Assembly (NCBI GenBank): GCA_902552985.1 | Contig: CACDII010000006.1 | Coordinates: 1-64,000 of the forward strand | Direction of reading: 5' to 3' | From: an uncultured Pelagibacteraceae bacterium | GTDB taxonomy: Bacteria > Pseudomonadota > Alphaproteobacteria > Pelagibacterales > Pelagibacteraceae | Length of the DNA stretch: 64,000 nt | Shown here: positions 19,052-62,572 of the stretch, piece after piece | Layout: each line of letters starts with the position of its first letter | Numbering within the stretch: position 1 is the first letter of the stretch | Made by a program: the position numbers and the translations under genes | The notes under the pieces: generated by a model | Told to the model about the DNA's origin: nothing | The model's database searches: none | The model's input: only the letters and a program-made list of their open reading frames with translations

Positions 19052-19300
19052 ATGATTGTTTCACCTTGTATTAGCATATGTAAAACTGATCCCTTAACTG
19101 GTTATTGTTATGGATGTGGCCGCAGCGACGAAGAAAAGGCCAAATGGAAAAATCCAGAAACTACTGATCTATGGAAATCTGAAAATCTAAAACTAATAGA
19201 AAAAAGACTTAATGGTTGGCAATTAGAGAGTTTTAGAGAATCTTACAGTCACAAAGTAAATAATGGTATTTCATTATTCAAAAAAAAGAGCTTAAAATAA
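19052..19300 (+). CDS. DUF1289 family small cysteine-rich protein
   Basis: An 82-residue protein with the DUF1289 pattern: CISICKTDPLTGYCYGCGRS near the N-terminus, then EEKAKW. The four-cysteine arrangement (CxxxC...CxxC) suggests a metal site. The function of the family is not established; members are often encoded beside other small housekeeping genes in Proteobacteria. Here it stands 101 bases from tRNA-Leu, which points the other way, and 25 bases before the uracil-DNA glycosylase gene, so the two may be co-transcribed. Confidence 0.8.
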   Translation: MIVSPCISICKTDPLTGYCYGCGRSDEEKAKWKNPETTDLWKSENLKLIEKRLNGWQLESFRESYSHKVNNGISLFKKKSLK

Positions 19301-56047: not shown

Positions 56048-57484
56048 TTATTTTAATTTCCAAGTCAGAACAGGTGCAAAAGTTGCAACTAAAAAAGAAA
56101 AAAATAACAAAGATTGAGATACCATTGCTGGAAATAAATCAGTCGAAAACAATATTCCTACTAATATTGATTTTGAAAAGTCTGGACTAGGAAATAGTAA
56201 AAATCCACAAATTAATCCAACTATAATTGAAACATAAGCATTTTTTTCATTAATATTTTTATTATAAAAGCTATAAAAAATAGTTAATACAAAGGCGCAA
56301 CAAAGTAAATCAGCTAATAAAAATAGATATAAAATATCAAATCCTTTAGATGCAACAATGAATGAAATTAAAGATAAAAATAAAATTAAATATTTAGAAA
56401 AATTTAAATAATTTATTTTTTTATTTATATTAAATGTTGCCTTGCCATCAACAACAATTAAGCTTGATATTGCATTTACTAAAGTATCTACAGTAGAAAT
56501 TGTTAATGCCAAACCAAGTATAATTATAAGTAAAGATAAAAATTCTGATTTTTCTTTGAGCAATAAGCTAAAAAATCCAAGATCGGGCCTAATTGTTGGA
56601 TTAATTGAAAAAGCTACCATTCCTGTGAAACCCATATAAAAAATTACTGGTATAATTACAAAAAAAGAAATGATTAGACTTTTTTTTAATGTTTCAAAAT
56701 TTTTTGCTGCATAAACGCGTTGCCAATTACCTTGATGAAATAAATTAGTTGCAGCTACAGCGATAAAAAAAGTTAAACCAGCTGTATAATTAGGTATGTA
56801 AGATGGACTTAAAAGATGTGGGTTTTTTTGATTTATAAATTCAAAAGAAAATTTATTTCCTATAAAAGAAGTTATTAGTAATAAAGATAATAACAAAAGA
56901 ACTACTATAACAGCCATTTGAATATTATCAGTAAATATAGAAGCTCTTAACCCTCCGTATAAAGTATAAATTAATGTGGAGATTAAAACAATAAATGCTG
57001 TGATCCAAAGTTCAGTACCAGAAATATAATTAATTAAAACCGCTATTGCTGTAACTTCTGCACATAAGAAAATGAACATATAAAAAATTGTCATTAACAA
57101 GATTAGTTTAAATAAATTTTTTCCAAACTTTTTTCGCATAAACTCAATTAAAGATGATCCTTTAGGAAATTCTTTTCTAATTTTTTTTCCTAAATAAATT
57201 AAAAAAAACATTGGGAACGCTGTACCTAATGAATAGCCAATTACAGCGCCGATTCCTCCCCACGTTGCAGCAGAAGTTGGGCCAAATAGAATCCAAGCAC
57301 CTAGTGCTGATGCAGTTAAACTTGTGGTTAGAGAAAATAATCCAACATTTCTATTTGCCGTTAAATAGTTATTTAAACCTTGATATTTTTTTGAATGATA
57401 CAGGCCTAAAAGTACAAATATTAAACTTATAATAATGACTAATATTAACGATGAAGATTTACTTAGAAAATATATTTTATCCAT
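56048..57484 (-). CDS. thiV: Sodium:solute symporter, thiamine-precursor type (ThiV-like)
   Basis: A 478-residue transporter of the sodium:solute symporter family with 13 to 14 helices. Family pattern: LSLTTSLTASALGAWILFG near the N-terminus, GSSLIEFMRKKFG near residue 107, and TLYGGLRASIFTDNIQMAV near residue 172. A TPP riboswitch immediately upstream indicates control by thiamine diphosphate, which fits the thiV gene known in SAR11 for uptake of a pyrimidine precursor of thiamine. Without the riboswitch it would be an unspecific SSS transporter. Confidence 0.85.
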   Translation of the reverse strand: MDKIYFLSKSSSLILVIIISLIFVLLGLYHSKKYQGLNNYLTANRNVGLFSLTTSLTASALGAWILFGPTSAATWGGIGAVIGYSLGTAFPMFFLIYLGKKIRKEFPKGSSLIEFMRKKFGKNLFKLILLMTIFYMFIFLCAEVTAIAVLINYISGTELWITAFIVLISTLIYTLYGGLRASIFTDNIQMAVIVVLLLLSLLLITSFIGNKFSFEFINQKNPHLLSPSYIPNYTAGLTFFIAVAATNLFHQGNWQRVYAAKNFETLKKSLIISFFVIIPVIFYMGFTGMVAFSINPTIRPDLGFFSLLLKEKSEFLSLLIIILGLALTISTVDTLVNAISSLIVVDGKATFNINKKINYLNFSKYLILFLSLISFIVASKGFDILYLFLLADLLCCAFVLTIFYSFYNKNINEKNAYVSIIVGLICGFLLFPSPDFSKSILVGILFSTDLFPAMVSQSLLFFSFLVATFAPVLTWKLK

Positions 57485-57487
57485 TAT

Positions 57488-57552
57488 TTCCCTTTCTGAA
57501 TTACCGGACAGGTTCTTAGGGTTTAATCTCAGTCTTTCGACACCCCTAATTT
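57488..57552 (-). promoter_or_regulatory. TPP riboswitch (THI element)
   Basis: The minus strand between the ABC ATPase and thiV genes carries the THI-box landmarks in order: TTAGGGGTG (57,541-57,549), CTGAGA (57,527-57,532), ACCCTAA, GAACCTG (57,509-57,515), CCGGTAAT and AGGGAA before the start codon. TTAGGG can pair with CCCTAA to form P2, with a small GTC-GAAA-GAC hairpin (P3). The AGGGAA ribosome binding site lies at the 3' end of the element, so translational control is likely. Confidence 0.93.
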
Positions 57553-57574
57553 TTAAATTTATATTATGATAAAA

Positions 57575-58636: not shown

Positions 58637-60257
58637 CTCTATCTCTTAAAATATAATTAGATGTAAGTAAAATAAAGAAACTTGCAATAATTATCAAACA
58701 TAATGATGGGACGGCAGCAGCTTCTAATAAATCCTCAGATGCAGAAATATAAGCTGTTGTTGCAAAAGTCTCAAAATTAAAAGGTCTTAAAATTAGCGTA
58801 ATTGGTAATTCCCTGATTATTTCTAATGAAATTAATATAACTACAAACAAAAGTGAATTTCTTAAGTAAGGAATGTGAATATTGAAAAAAGTTTTACTCT
58901 TGGAGTATCCGAGAAGATAAGAGCTCTCATCCACAGCTATGTTGATTTTTTCATAACCCGATTTTATTCCATTGAAAGCCAATGAATAAAATCTTACAAA
59001 ATAAACAAGGACTAAACCTAAAACCGAACCAATAAATATTTTTTTTATTGATAAAAATCCTAATGATTTTAATATGTAATCATCAAACCATGCAACAAAA
59101 GTTATAAAAGCTATAGCTAAAATTACTCCTGGTATTGCATAGCCAGAAATTGATAAAGTTGATAATAAATTCAAAAATTTTTTATTTGAAACTCTATTTC
59201 CATAATTAGATATTAAGGCGAAAAAAACTAAAACTAAGCTTGATAAAGATACTAAATATAGCGTATTTATTAAAAGATCAATTATTTGTAAATCGATTAA
59301 ATTTTCAGGGAATTTAATTGTCCAGTACAACATTTGGCTTAATGGAAATAAAAAACTAAGAAAAAACAAAATAAAACAAAATAAAAATGCAAAAAAAGAT
59401 TTCCCACCACAAAGTTTAATTTTTTCTTTTTTTTTAAATCCACCTTTTGTTTCAAGATGATACTTAGCTTTTTTTCGAGATAAGTTTTCAGTTAAAAATA
59501 AAATGAAGACAAATAATAAAAGAAAGAAAGATATTCGATTTGCGAATGCTAAATCATCAAAAGTTATCCAAGCATTATAAATACCAGTTGTTAAAGTATT
59601 TACAGAAAAAAAATCTACTGCACCAAATTCAGCTAATGTTTCCATTGCAACGAGCGATAAACCGGCAACAATAGCAGGACGAGCGGCTGGTAATATGATT
59701 GAGTAAAAAGATTTAAATTTTGAAAAACCTAGATTTTTACCTAATTCTATTAAATTTTGTGATTGATACAAAAATGATGATCTAGCAAGTATATATACAT
59801 AAGCAAAGAGGGAGAAAGAAATCGACAATATCAAACCAAACATCCCACTAAATTTTGGTATATGTCTGTTATATTCACCATCTCCAAATAAAAATTTTAA
59901 GATCGTAAATGCAGTCCCATAATTTTCAAAAAAAGCGAATAAAGAATAAGCATAAATATAAGGAGGTACTGCAAAAGATAGAATTAAAGACCATTTAAAA
60001 AAATTGACACCTGGAAATTGATAAAAAGAAACTAAATATGCCGATCCCACACCAAAAATAAATGTTAAAAATAAAACTCCAATTAAAAGAATTAAAGAGT
60101 TAAATATATATTCAAGAAAAAAAGTTTTTTTAAGTATTTCAAAATATTGAGAAGTATCCTCAAAAAAACTTATAAAAACTGTTATTATTGGAACAATCAC
60201 AACTAAAGAAATTGCAAAAGATGTGAGGTACCAGATGCTTAATTTACCATTTAACAT
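58629..60257 (-). CDS. fbpB: Fe(III) ABC transporter permease (fused double permease)
   Basis: A 542-residue membrane protein with two duplicated permease halves of about six helices each. Coupling-helix EAA motifs appear twice, near residue 175 (LGKNLGFSKFKSFYSIILPA) and near residue 458 (SYLLGYSKSKTFFNIHIPYL), both contacting the ATPase. This double form is the FbpB/FutB type. It starts 58 bases downstream of the terminator-like hairpin at 60,315 and overlaps the ATPase gene. Confidence 0.9.
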   Translation of the reverse strand: MLNGKLSIWYLTSFAISLVVIVPIITVFISFFEDTSQYFEILKKTFFLEYIFNSLILLIGVLFLTFIFGVGSAYLVSFYQFPGVNFFKWSLILSFAVPPYIYAYSLFAFFENYGTAFTILKFLFGDGEYNRHIPKFSGMFGLILSISFSLFAYVYILARSSFLYQSQNLIELGKNLGFSKFKSFYSIILPAARPAIVAGLSLVAMETLAEFGAVDFFSVNTLTTGIYNAWITFDDLAFANRISFFLLLFVFILFLTENLSRKKAKYHLETKGGFKKKEKIKLCGGKSFFAFLFCFILFFLSFLFPLSQMLYWTIKFPENLIDLQIIDLLINTLYLVSLSSLVLVFFALISNYGNRVSNKKFLNLLSTLSISGYAIPGVILAIAFITFVAWFDDYILKSLGFLSIKKIFIGSVLGLVLVYFVRFYSLAFNGIKSGYEKINIAVDESSYLLGYSKSKTFFNIHIPYLRNSLLFVVILISLEIIRELPITLILRPFNFETFATTAYISASEDLLEAAAVPSLCLIIIASFFILLTSNYILRDRDE

Positions 60258-60314
60258 TTATAATTAATTTATATCAGGAAATACAACTTATGATAATTTA
60301 TTTAAATAAAAAAA

Positions 60315-60359
60315 AGTGCCCGTACAAAAAAGGGGGTAAACCTATATTATACGAGCACT
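60315..60359 (-). terminator. Terminator hairpin inside the iron operon
   Basis: On the minus strand AGTGCTCGTA pairs with TACGGGCACT (ten base pairs, one U-G) and is followed by seven T. It lies 18 bases after the stop codon of the cysteine-rich micro-ORF and 58 bases before fbpB. This is a rho-independent terminator between binding-protein and permease genes. Confidence 0.82.
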
Positions 60360-60376
60360 ATATGTTATCAAAGGAA

Positions 60377-60544
60377 CTAATATCTCTTATTAAAAAGATT
60401 TAAGATTTCGTGGATCTCACTTTTTTTAAGATCTGCAAGTTCTCTTTTATTTATCATCTCTTCAACTTTTTTACACTCTGAGCTGCAAGGAAGGCAACAC
60501 TCAGAAGAATTATTATAATCAAAGTTAGACAAATTTTTTTTCAT
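60377..60544 (-). CDS. 55-residue cysteine-rich protein in the iron operon
   Basis: A 55-codon frame between fbpA and fbpB on the same strand. It starts MKKNLSNFDYNNSSECCLPC, continues SSECKK and then becomes helical and charged (EEMINKRELADLKKSEIHEI). Four cysteines sit in a CCxxCxxxC cluster near residues 16-24, suited to bind iron, zinc or a cluster. No family is recognised. It starts 22 bases after the fbpA stop and precedes the terminator, so it should be expressed with fbpA in iron-limited cells. Confidence 0.6.
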   Translation of the reverse strand: MKKNLSNFDYNNSSECCLPCSSECKKVEEMINKRELADLKKSEIHEILNLFNKRY

Positions 60545-60565
60545 AGTATTACTCAACTATTAACT

Positions 60566-61594
60566 CTATTTCCAACCTGCTGCAGTCATTACTTCTAATG
60601 CTGCTGCTTGGTTTTTTCCATAAGTAGAAACTTTTGTTTTTAGATCTTGTTTAAAATCTAATCCCAAATTGTTCACTACTAATGGGCTTGGTGATACACC
60701 AGCAATCATAGGAAATTCAAAAGTATTATTAGTAAAGTGTTCTTGAGCTGAAGGTGACAATAAATAGTCAACAAGAGCAATAGCATTTGCTTTGTTTGGA
60801 GCACCTTTAACTAAAGCTGCACAACTAATATTCATATGTGTTCCTCTTCCATCTTGATTTGGAAAGAATGCTTTAACTTTTTTTGCAGCTTCTTGTTGTT
60901 CTGCACCTTTTTTGCCAGATAACATTAGAGCTAAATAATAAGTATTAGCAACAGCGATATCAGCTTCTCCAGCGGCTACAGCCATTATTTGAGCTCTATC
61001 GTTTCCTTCAGAGTCTCTTGCCATATTAGCAACAACGCCCTTTGCCCATTCAGCAGTAGCTTTTTTTCCATTATTTGCAATTAGTGAAGCTACAAGAGAT
61101 TTATTGTAAATGTTGCTAGATTTTCTTATTACCAATCTGCCTTTCCATTTTGGATCAGCTAGACCTTCATATGTCATTCCAGATAGCTCCGCACCATTAA
61201 CTCTTTCTGGTGAGTAATAAATTATTCTTGCTCTTTTTGCTACTCCAACCCAGTGCGATGTTCTAAAGTTTTTTGGAACAGATGATTTAATTGTTGATGA
61301 AGTTAAACCACTTTGCGTCATTCCTTTTGCTTGAAAAGCACCACATCTTCCAGCGTCAGCTGTAATGTAAAGATCTGCTGAAGAATCAACACCTTCTTCA
61401 ATCATTCTTTTTTCTAAAGCTCCTGATTTTCCGTTGATTAAATTTACCTTAATTCCAGTCGCTGCTGTAAACTTATCGTAAAGTTCAGCATCGGCTTTAT
61501 AATGTCTTGCATTGAAAATGTTTACTTCGTTTGCGATTGCAAAAGTCGACATTAACAATGAAAAAATTAAACTTAAAATTGATATTTTTTTCAT
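60566..61594 (-). CDS. fbpA: Fe(III) ABC transporter substrate-binding protein
   Basis: Periplasmic iron-binding protein of 342 residues with the signal peptide MKKISILSLIFSLLMSTFAI and cleavage after AIA or ANA-like sites. The N-terminus of the mature protein reads NEVNIFNARHYKADAELYDK, typical of FbpA/FutA proteins (NxRHYxxD). Tyrosine ligands are expected in VANTYYLALMLS near residue 218. A ribosome binding site AAGGAG lies upstream. Its promoter region contains a perfect Fur-like palindrome. Confidence 0.92.
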   Translation of the reverse strand: MKKISILSLIFSLLMSTFAIANEVNIFNARHYKADAELYDKFTAATGIKVNLINGKSGALEKRMIEEGVDSSADLYITADAGRCGAFQAKGMTQSGLTSSTIKSSVPKNFRTSHWVGVAKRARIIYYSPERVNGAELSGMTYEGLADPKWKGRLVIRKSSNIYNKSLVASLIANNGKKATAEWAKGVVANMARDSEGNDRAQIMAVAAGEADIAVANTYYLALMLSGKKGAEQQEAAKKVKAFFPNQDGRGTHMNISCAALVKGAPNKANAIALVDYLLSPSAQEHFTNNTFEFPMIAGVSPSPLVVNNLGLDFKQDLKTKVSTYGKNQAAALEVMTAAGWK

Positions 61595-61635
61595 AATTCT
61601 CCTTTTATTTTAATGTAAATGAGAACTATTCGCAA

Positions 61636-61650
61636 TGATAATGATTATCA
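61636..61650 (-). promoter_or_regulatory. Fur-like operator upstream of fbpA
   Basis: TGATAATGATTATCA is a perfect 7-1-7 inverted repeat (TGATAAT, one base, ATTATCA) in the spacer between lysR and fbpA, 41 bases upstream of the fbpA start. This equals the core of the Fur-box consensus. It supports iron-repressed expression of the transporter. Confidence 0.75.
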
Positions 61651-61681
61651 ATCGCACAGTGTGACGCACCCTATGATTTAT

Positions 61682-62572
61682 CTAAAACTCCCACTCAGAT
61701 ATCTTGCTATATAGAAAATTTCTAAAAGCTTGGACCCTAGCCACATTTTTTAAAGATTGAGGGTAAACAAAATGAGCTTCGGTTATTGGACCCTCGCATT
61801 TAGGAAGAACTTTTAATAGATTTTTTGATTGAAAAACAAGATAATCTGGTAACGCGGCCAATCCCACACCACTTTCAACGGCCAAAAGAAGTCCCATTAC
61901 ACTATTAACTTTCATTATTGGTTTTCTCTTTTTGTTATCTTTCATTCCAATTTTTAATGCCCAATCTGGGTTATACACTGGAGAAGGCGCACCTTTGCCA
62001 AACGAAATAAATCTATGTTTATTTAAATCCCCCACCGATTTCGGCATTCCATATTTTTCAAAATATTTATTGGAACCATAAATGTGGTAATTTATGTCTA
62101 TTAGTTTTCTTTGTATGTAATTTAATTGTTTTGGTCTTCTCATAAAAATACCTATGTCTGCTTGTCTTGTGCTCAAATCTAATTCTTTATCGTCAAAAAT
62201 AAGTTCCACCTCAATTTCCGGATGAATACTCATAAATTCTTGTATTCGTGGTGTTAACCAGTGTGTCCCAAAACTTCTAACAGTTGTAATTGTTAGTTTA
62301 CCTGTCGGTTTATTTTTTTGATCACCTAATGAGGTTTCTACATCTTTAAGCTTACTTATCACCTCATGAGCAGTTTTATATAGGTATTCACCATTTTCAG
62401 TTAATGCAAGTCCTCTTGCATGCCTTTCAAATAATTTCACATTTAGATCTTCTTCTAATGACTGAATTTGCCTGCTTATTGCAGATTGACTTATATTTAA
62501 AACTACAGTCGCACTAGTGAAACTTCCTGCTTCAGCAACTGCATGAAAAATTTTTAACTTATCCCAATCCAT
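61682..62572 (-). CDS. LysR family transcriptional regulator
   Basis: A 296-residue regulator with an N-terminal winged HTH: FHAVAEAGSFTSATVVLNIS, then SAISRQIQSLEEDLNVKLFE and LTENGEYL, followed by the periplasmic-binding-like effector domain (LTITTVRSFGTHWLTPRIQE near residue 92, and SVMGLLLAVESGVGLAALPD near the end). The start codon overlaps the acuI stop by one base. Targets are unknown; acuI and the fbp genes are neighbours. Confidence 0.9.
   Translation of the reverse strand: MDWDKLKIFHAVAEAGSFTSATVVLNISQSAISRQIQSLEEDLNVKLFERHARGLALTENGEYLYKTAHEVISKLKDVETSLGDQKNKPTGKLTITTVRSFGTHWLTPRIQEFMSIHPEIEVELIFDDKELDLSTRQADIGIFMRRPKQLNYIQRKLIDINYHIYGSNKYFEKYGMPKSVGDLNKHRFISFGKGAPSPVYNPDWALKIGMKDNKKRKPIMKVNSVMGLLLAVESGVGLAALPDYLVFQSKNLLKVLPKCEGPITEAHFVYPQSLKNVARVQAFRNFLYSKISEWEF

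Follow-up and report, generated by a model that had tools for sequence, protein, structure and literature searches.

The window analysed here, a stretch of 64,000 nucleotides from an uncultured Pelagibacteraceae bacterium, encodes a periplasmic iron-binding protein and its permease. The 308 bases between fbpA and fbpB are mostly occupied by an open reading frame of 55 codons. Is this frame a gene and, if so, what does its product do beside an iron importer? A sequence-only reading had proposed that the product binds or senses iron or regulates the importer. The clean frame it described is present in the gap, 21 nt separating the fbpA stop codon from the ATG of the small gene, and the order along the minus strand is fbpA, the 55-codon frame, a hairpin, fbpB and fbpC (Table 1). 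The iron specificity of the FbpA protein of the window would follow by analogy with SfuC of 'Ca. Pelagibacter ubique' HTCC1062, as treated in an excerpt of PMC2864753. Just 3' of fbpC, positions 57472-57557 of the minus strand give a full-length match to a diverged TPP riboswitch aptamer (45.3 bits, E 2.8e-7); the score is below the Rfam cut-off of 54.3, and the aptamer is hence missing from the Rfam scan at cut-off.

Table 1. Features of the fbp locus, in positions of the window
Feature	Positions	Strand	Basis and remarks
55-aa cysteine protein gene (motif CCLPCSSEC)	60377..60544	minus	ATG at 60544, stop codon 60377-60379; conserved family and coding test
fbpA/sfuC-type periplasmic iron-binding protein, 342 aa	60566..61594	minus	Pfam SBP_bac_6/11/8/1, all above cut-off
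fbpB/sfuB-type permease, 542 aa	58629..60257	minus	Pfam BPD_transp_1 above cut-off
fbpC-type ABC ATPase, 353 aa	57575..58636	minus	ORF list; ABC motifs and place, read by eye
Fur-like 6-1-6 box GATAATGATTATC	61637..61649		exact match, upstream of fbpA
Intercistronic hairpin followed by a T run, after the small frame	60315..60359	minus	RNA folds

One answer would be a chance frame without a product. Frames of similar length are common in this AT-rich DNA, with many others of 30-77 aa in the ORF list for the surrounding 6.5 kb, and length alone is no argument for a gene here; conservation makes the case. In a first search, which covered the window's own genome and 100 relatives (101 in all), the small protein was matched in 43 at E <= 0.1. 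Forty-one of these belong to the same genus, the window's own included, with E-values of 3.4e-5 or better; the matches in the other two genomes (G014 and G090) look like chance. Five named SAR11 contigs yielded further copies. We read 46 loci, namely the window and 45 relatives picked for having a match. The small frame lies directly 3' of fbpA in all 35 loci read at first and likewise in the 11 further ones, and it is open, with no in-frame stops, in 46/46; the apparent stops within four matches of the first search fall at the frame ends. Downstream, fbpB follows on the same strand in 45 loci, the contig of the remaining one ending before fbpB, and seven of the 46 carry another gene between the small gene and fbpB.

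Pairwise pN/pS of the small gene was noisy (median 0.54, with dN/dS above 1 in some close pairs), which we put down to few changes and the extreme AT content. Because pairwise dN/dS is unclear in this AT-rich DNA, a shuffle test and a codon-position test were used instead, on a codon alignment of 45 distinct sequences and 53 columns. The alignment contains no stops and has a mean pairwise BLOSUM score of 3.12. Over 200 column shuffles, scores averaged 1.36 (sd 0.25) and peaked at 1.96, with no fewer than 86 stops, and the other five reading frames contain 30-473 stops. Parsimony changes at codon positions 1, 2 and 3 numbered 208, 98 and 315, respectively. The 55-codon frame is a genuine protein-coding gene under selection.

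A profile of 44 members was then searched in 300 genomes of the same SAR11 genus and matched 203, with one copy per genome among the matches listed. With a frame open at all 46 loci, a protein-type substitution pattern and this breadth of occurrence, a chance ORF retains next to no probability. We found fbpA in 213 of the 300 genomes: together with the small gene in 201 and alone in 12, two further genomes having the small gene only. Among genomes at least 90% complete, the small gene was present in 41/44 (counting the fragment in G054) and fbpA in 42/44. Four of the 12 genomes with fbpA only (G020, G025, G494 and G583) have a contig that breaks off within fbpA or immediately after it. Seven others have spacers of 1-70 nt from which the small gene is absent (G007, G012, G500, G506, G532, G696 and G722), and in the last, G488 (L134), the 126-nt spacer holds no more than a degenerate piece of the C-terminal end. 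The gene is likewise missing from G397, which is not one of the 300; G012, G397 and G506 are complete or near-complete genomes. In the two genomes with the small gene only, a contig end cuts fbpA beside an intact small gene (G674) or falls inside the small gene (G054). In G638 (L129), one of the 201, the copy stops after the Cys motif and the usual hairpin is not evident by eye. The remnant in G488 and the short copy in G638 represent natural decay of the small gene.

Beyond the genus, the genomes sampled gave no convincing match to the protein. Class-wide, 3/385 genomes matched: two of the same genus strongly, the window's own included, and one other weakly. The weak match, in G255 (E 0.007), covers 24 residues of a 187-aa frame. 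In a sister family of the same order, fbpA was found in 34/40 genomes, none of which gave a convincing match to the small protein, and the gene was absent from the fbpA spacers of all seven sister-family loci read. A 56-aa frame in one sister-family genome (L092, E 0.076) was judged a chance match. No relative was found in viral contigs, searched for close relatives only, or in phage records. The sequence-only reading had named absence of the frame, or of its conserved cysteines, from related fbp loci as what would count against it; most loci of the genus carry both, but the frame is missing from some, including those of the sister family. The small gene appears to be an innovation of this genus that accompanies fbpA and that a few lineages lost or never acquired.

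The signals around the gene bear on when and how strongly it is expressed. A Fur-like core, GATAATNATTATC, lies 55-87 nt before the fbpA start in 46/46 loci, exactly in 17, with one mismatch in 20 and with two in nine; shuffled upstream regions reach two or fewer mismatches in about 5%. Across the whole window, about 0.5 matches with at most one mismatch are expected and two were found. Between the fbpA stop codon and the chosen start of the small gene, the distance is -1 to 21 nt, and 0-7 nt in 42/46 loci. As the start falls at or just after that stop, the small gene is probably coupled to fbpA in translation. At the level of sequence, these signals support the earlier proposal of co-expression, as a putative message shared by fbpA and the small gene and controlled through a Fur-like box. 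Given this box and the position behind fbpA, the small protein would be produced together with the iron-binding protein under iron limitation. In HTCC1062, SfuABC is strongly induced by iron limitation; according to the excerpt of PMC2864753 used here, sfuC mRNA rises 16-fold, sfuB 10-fold and sfuA 5-fold, and SfuC protein is up to 27-fold higher.

A hairpin starts 0-21 nt after the stop codon of the small gene in 46/46 loci. Its energy, with the best local fold chosen at each locus, has a median of -20.4 kcal/mol and a weakest value of -11.8 kcal/mol, and the first 75 nt after the small frame have a z-score below -2 in 41/46 loci. A terminator had been claimed at this point. The strong inverted repeat and the T run after it are there, but a simple terminator scan found none in 60200-61800. 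The hairpin is likely a stabiliser or partial terminator that separates fbpA and the small gene from fbpB. Such an order points to a level of the small protein like that of FbpA, and to a lower one for fbpB; the hairpin should hold the small protein at the former level rather than the latter.

In several lineages (L013, L015, L038, L041, L067, L126 and L135-L137), loops of the hairpin that separates the small gene, or fbpA, from fbpB can pair with the ribosome-binding or start region of fbpB, in duplexes of about 7-14 base pairs and -9.8 to -15.9 kcal/mol that are weak or absent in many others. Own loops averaged -5.43 over 119 distinct pairs, against -4.78 for permuted ones (0 of 5000) and -4.88 for shuffled ones, a comparison that shared ancestry confounds. 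The window's own loop pairing, at -7.7, is not kept in L031 and L032. The pairing is a possible pseudoknot that would throttle fbpB. Separately, a conserved AAGGCGGA stands before fbpB, within 95 nt after the small frame, in 21/46 loci, and many copies lie inside TTATAAGGCGGATTATAA; the ribosome-binding site presumed here would then fall within the loop of a second, small hairpin.

Could the frame then serve only as a leader acting in cis, whose translation opens or closes the hairpin and sets fbpB expression while the peptide itself is inert? The closeness of the hairpin to the stop codon and the capacity of some loops to pair with the fbpB start region would suit such a role. However, amino-acid conservation spans the entire frame, hairpins are also present in spacers without the frame, and in the window more than 90 nt separate the cysteine codons from the hairpin that follows. 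We regard an inert leader as improbable.

Attention therefore turns to the protein. From 212 loci, some of which repeat one genome, 143 distinct sequences were obtained; one is a tail fragment, and counts are given for the other 142. The conserved motif is CxPCxxEC. CxxC is kept in 142/142, and the third cysteine in 138/142, valine standing in its place in the other four (L074, L076, L127 and L128). The CCxxCxxxC cluster reported from the window is literally right (C16, C17, C20 and C24), but conservation extends to C17, C20 and C24 only. Immediately ahead of the first conserved cysteine stands alanine or glycine in 107/142 and cysteine in 4/142, and the doubled cysteine of the window is local. 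The proline of CxPC is present in 39/46 loci. Other near-invariant positions are a lysine two residues after the third cysteine, Ile/Val-Asn-x-Arg, a serine, an isoleucine and a C-terminal phenylalanine. Five residues before this phenylalanine, histidine occurs in 107/130 distinct cores and glutamate or aspartate in 14 more (121/130); the window protein has glutamate there, with a histidine adjoining. Two of the four sequences with valine also have serine at the histidine position. The window protein is hydrophilic (GRAVY -0.85) and no signal peptide or membrane segment is visible in it by eye, so it should be cytosolic.

AlphaFold models of the window protein and of a relative (L033) were built from six sequences. 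Two helices are predicted in the former (22-31 and 41-50) and three in the latter, at mean pLDDT values of 66 and 69. The helix that the sequence-only reading placed after the cysteines is thus predicted with moderate confidence, and the first two conserved cysteines sit just before a helix in these models. Neither model contains beta strands, at this modest confidence, and a fold search of the first model against the PDB gave no usable match. The models are too weak to place ligands and are silent on metal.

Library searches did not place the protein in a described family, in agreement with the earlier remark that no described counterpart was known. It matched no library family above cut-off in a search in which the FbpA and FbpB products did. 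For 44 members, Pfam gave scattered weak matches only (best E 0.005, in 4/44), as did NCBIfam (best E 0.004, in 5/44) and PHROGs (best E 0.007, in 1/44). We took these as noise because each touches at most five of the 44 members. DUF1289/YdhL (PF06945), a predicted Fe-S protein, was suggested by its opening SPCxxxC, to which the PCxxxC of the small protein is similar, but the second CxGC motif of DUF1289 is missing here. Profile comparison aligns only eight columns (probability 16%), and the 15 Pfam families that one or more of the 44 members match at E <= 1 do not include DUF1289. It occurs separately in 27/31 genomes searched, the window's own included; a DUF1289 domain (E 2.9e-13) is encoded at 19061-19207 of the window, on the plus strand. 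Heavy-metal-associated domains of the CopA type share with the small protein a CxxC that leads into a helix, and CopA was the best match of a sequence profile search of the PDB, at a non-significant E of 0.31. This identity was also rejected, as the domain is absent from the Pfam matches of the 44 members, only helices and no beta strands are predicted in the small protein, and the third cysteine and the histidine pattern differ.

The protein is not evidently a domain of something larger either. Five weak matches of the first search fell in frames of 594-598 aa, and the three that were read, which we take to be an aspartyl-tRNA-synthetase-like protein, lack the Cys motif. Three further weak matches, presumably to ThiF-like, polynucleotide-phosphorylase-like and phytoene-synthase-like proteins, look like chance. 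No earlier description was found in the literature searched; subscription journals, protein databases and small-protein catalogues lay outside its scope, and the protein may well be deposited without a name as a 'hypothetical protein'.

Taken with the conserved candidate ligands, these observations lead us to favour, tentatively and at a little under an even chance, a cytosolic thiolate metal-binding accessory of the FbpABC (SfuABC) importer in most of one SAR11 genus, which would accept imported iron, buffer it or sense it. The roles first proposed for the protein, binding or sensing of iron or regulation of the importer, are plausible. Iron starvation would induce the importer and, with it, bulk production of the small protein, which would work in the cytosol, where its thiols would be kept reduced. 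Its metal site would consist of the three cysteines that open one helix and the histidine or acid of the next, and might hold Fe(II), an Fe-S cluster or zinc. At the inner face of the transporter, the protein would take up, buffer or sense the incoming iron. The main doubts about this metal-binding accessory are the sequences with valine for the third cysteine and the lineages without the gene. With three cysteines the site is incomplete, and a fourth ligand or dimerisation would have to fill it; the valine in four sequences, two of them also with serine at the histidine position, indicates that the site is not absolutely required.

Three cysteines and one histidine are also a usual ligand set of zinc, which fits a structural mini-subunit, a zinc-held knot that would dock from the cytosol on FbpB or FbpC and stabilise or gate the transporter. 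The small gene is tied to fbpA in its occurrence, and at 45/46 loci it stands between the genes for the binding protein and the permease (at the other locus the contig ends). However, the hairpin comes after it and leaves it on the side of fbpA, a place that better fits a soluble, abundant protein than a subunit made at the level of FbpB, and related fbpB genes occur without it. We consider a subunit of this kind rather unlikely.

The CxPC at a helix start, present in most members, recalls thioredoxin-like proteins and would allow a thiol-disulfide partner that guards against the peroxide chemistry of incoming iron. Eight of the loci read have an insert between hairpin and fbpB, of which seven hold a peroxiredoxin-like gene and L018 a diverged one. 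The gene, of about 180 codons and named by sequence reading, is found in L024, L068, L070, L071, L074 and L127, and has an in-frame stop in L072. On the other hand, 39/46 loci have no such insert, and the peroxiredoxin-like gene also occurs in sister-family spacers without the small gene (L082, L083 and L085). No strands are predicted, so no thioredoxin fold is either, and the third cysteine is needless for a dithiol. A redox role appears to us less probable than that of a subunit.

The principal competitor of the metal-binding accessory is a small Fur-controlled regulator like FbpA/FbpB/FbpC of Bacillus subtilis, which would aid an iron-sparing response through an RNA or protein partner, with the cysteines tuning it by redox or iron state. 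The gene lies downstream of a Fur-like box, and the protein is small, helical by prediction and usually basic (median pI 8.9 and net charge +3 over 140 distinct sequences). Excerpts of PMC2864753 also report that SAR11 protein levels are largely uncoupled from mRNA under iron limitation and recall a putative structured RNA that precedes the sfu operon, so that control at the RNA level is also possible. Nevertheless, a pI of 7.6 and a net charge of +1 make the window protein nearly neutral, and family members range from pI 4.6 to 10.0 and from -4 to +10 in net charge: charge is not conserved, the cysteines are. Families of the Bacillus FbpB type were absent from the Pfam and NCBIfam matches of the 44 members and were rejected as an identity. 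Even for Bacillus FbpB, PMC7430163 states that RNA binding lacks experimental evidence. A regulator thus seems unlikely, if less so than the mini-subunit, which in turn stands ahead of the redox partner.

A narrower version of the metal-binding accessory is more doubtful than the accessory as such, though better placed than these three: an undescribed family of cytosolic iron chaperone or sensor peptides (CxPCxxEC...[H/D/E]), coupled in translation to the periplasmic iron-binding protein, that hands over or reports imported iron in a SAR11 genus. HTCC1062, which belongs to this group, has no ferritin according to the excerpt of PMC2864753. Replacement of ferritin by the small protein was considered and dropped: PF00210 matched 31/40 sister-family genomes, 9/61 of the same genus and 3/18 more, and the two matches read look rubrerythrin-like by our own sequence reading. 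If the chaperone or sensor proposal is true, an FbpABC importer would have a dedicated 'inside partner'. A conserved unnamed partner right behind fbpA, matched in 201 of the 213 fbpA-bearing genomes of the genus sampled, would also serve as an additional marker and offer a concrete way into how iron is handled inside these bacteria, which are very abundant in the ocean.

Among known systems, Bacillus FbpA/FbpB/FbpC share with the SAR11 fbp genes the letters 'Fbp' by a coincidence of naming. To our knowledge, the Bacillus proteins belong to no importer operon and have no conserved CxxC. The likeness is one of working, as they too are small, often basic and made under iron limitation (PMC7430163, in part). 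Much closer is SfuABC/FbpABC of HTCC1062 (SAR11_1236-1238), where the same binding protein, permease and ATPase are encoded side by side. This operon is already known, and it is the extra conserved small protein that appears undescribed; its absence from G012, G397 and G506 and the gapless numbering of HTCC1062 may explain why it was overlooked. By their tags alone, sfuB (1237) and sfuC (1238) of HTCC1062 apparently have no annotated gene between them, whereas the window and most of its relatives in the genus carry the additional small gene at this place.
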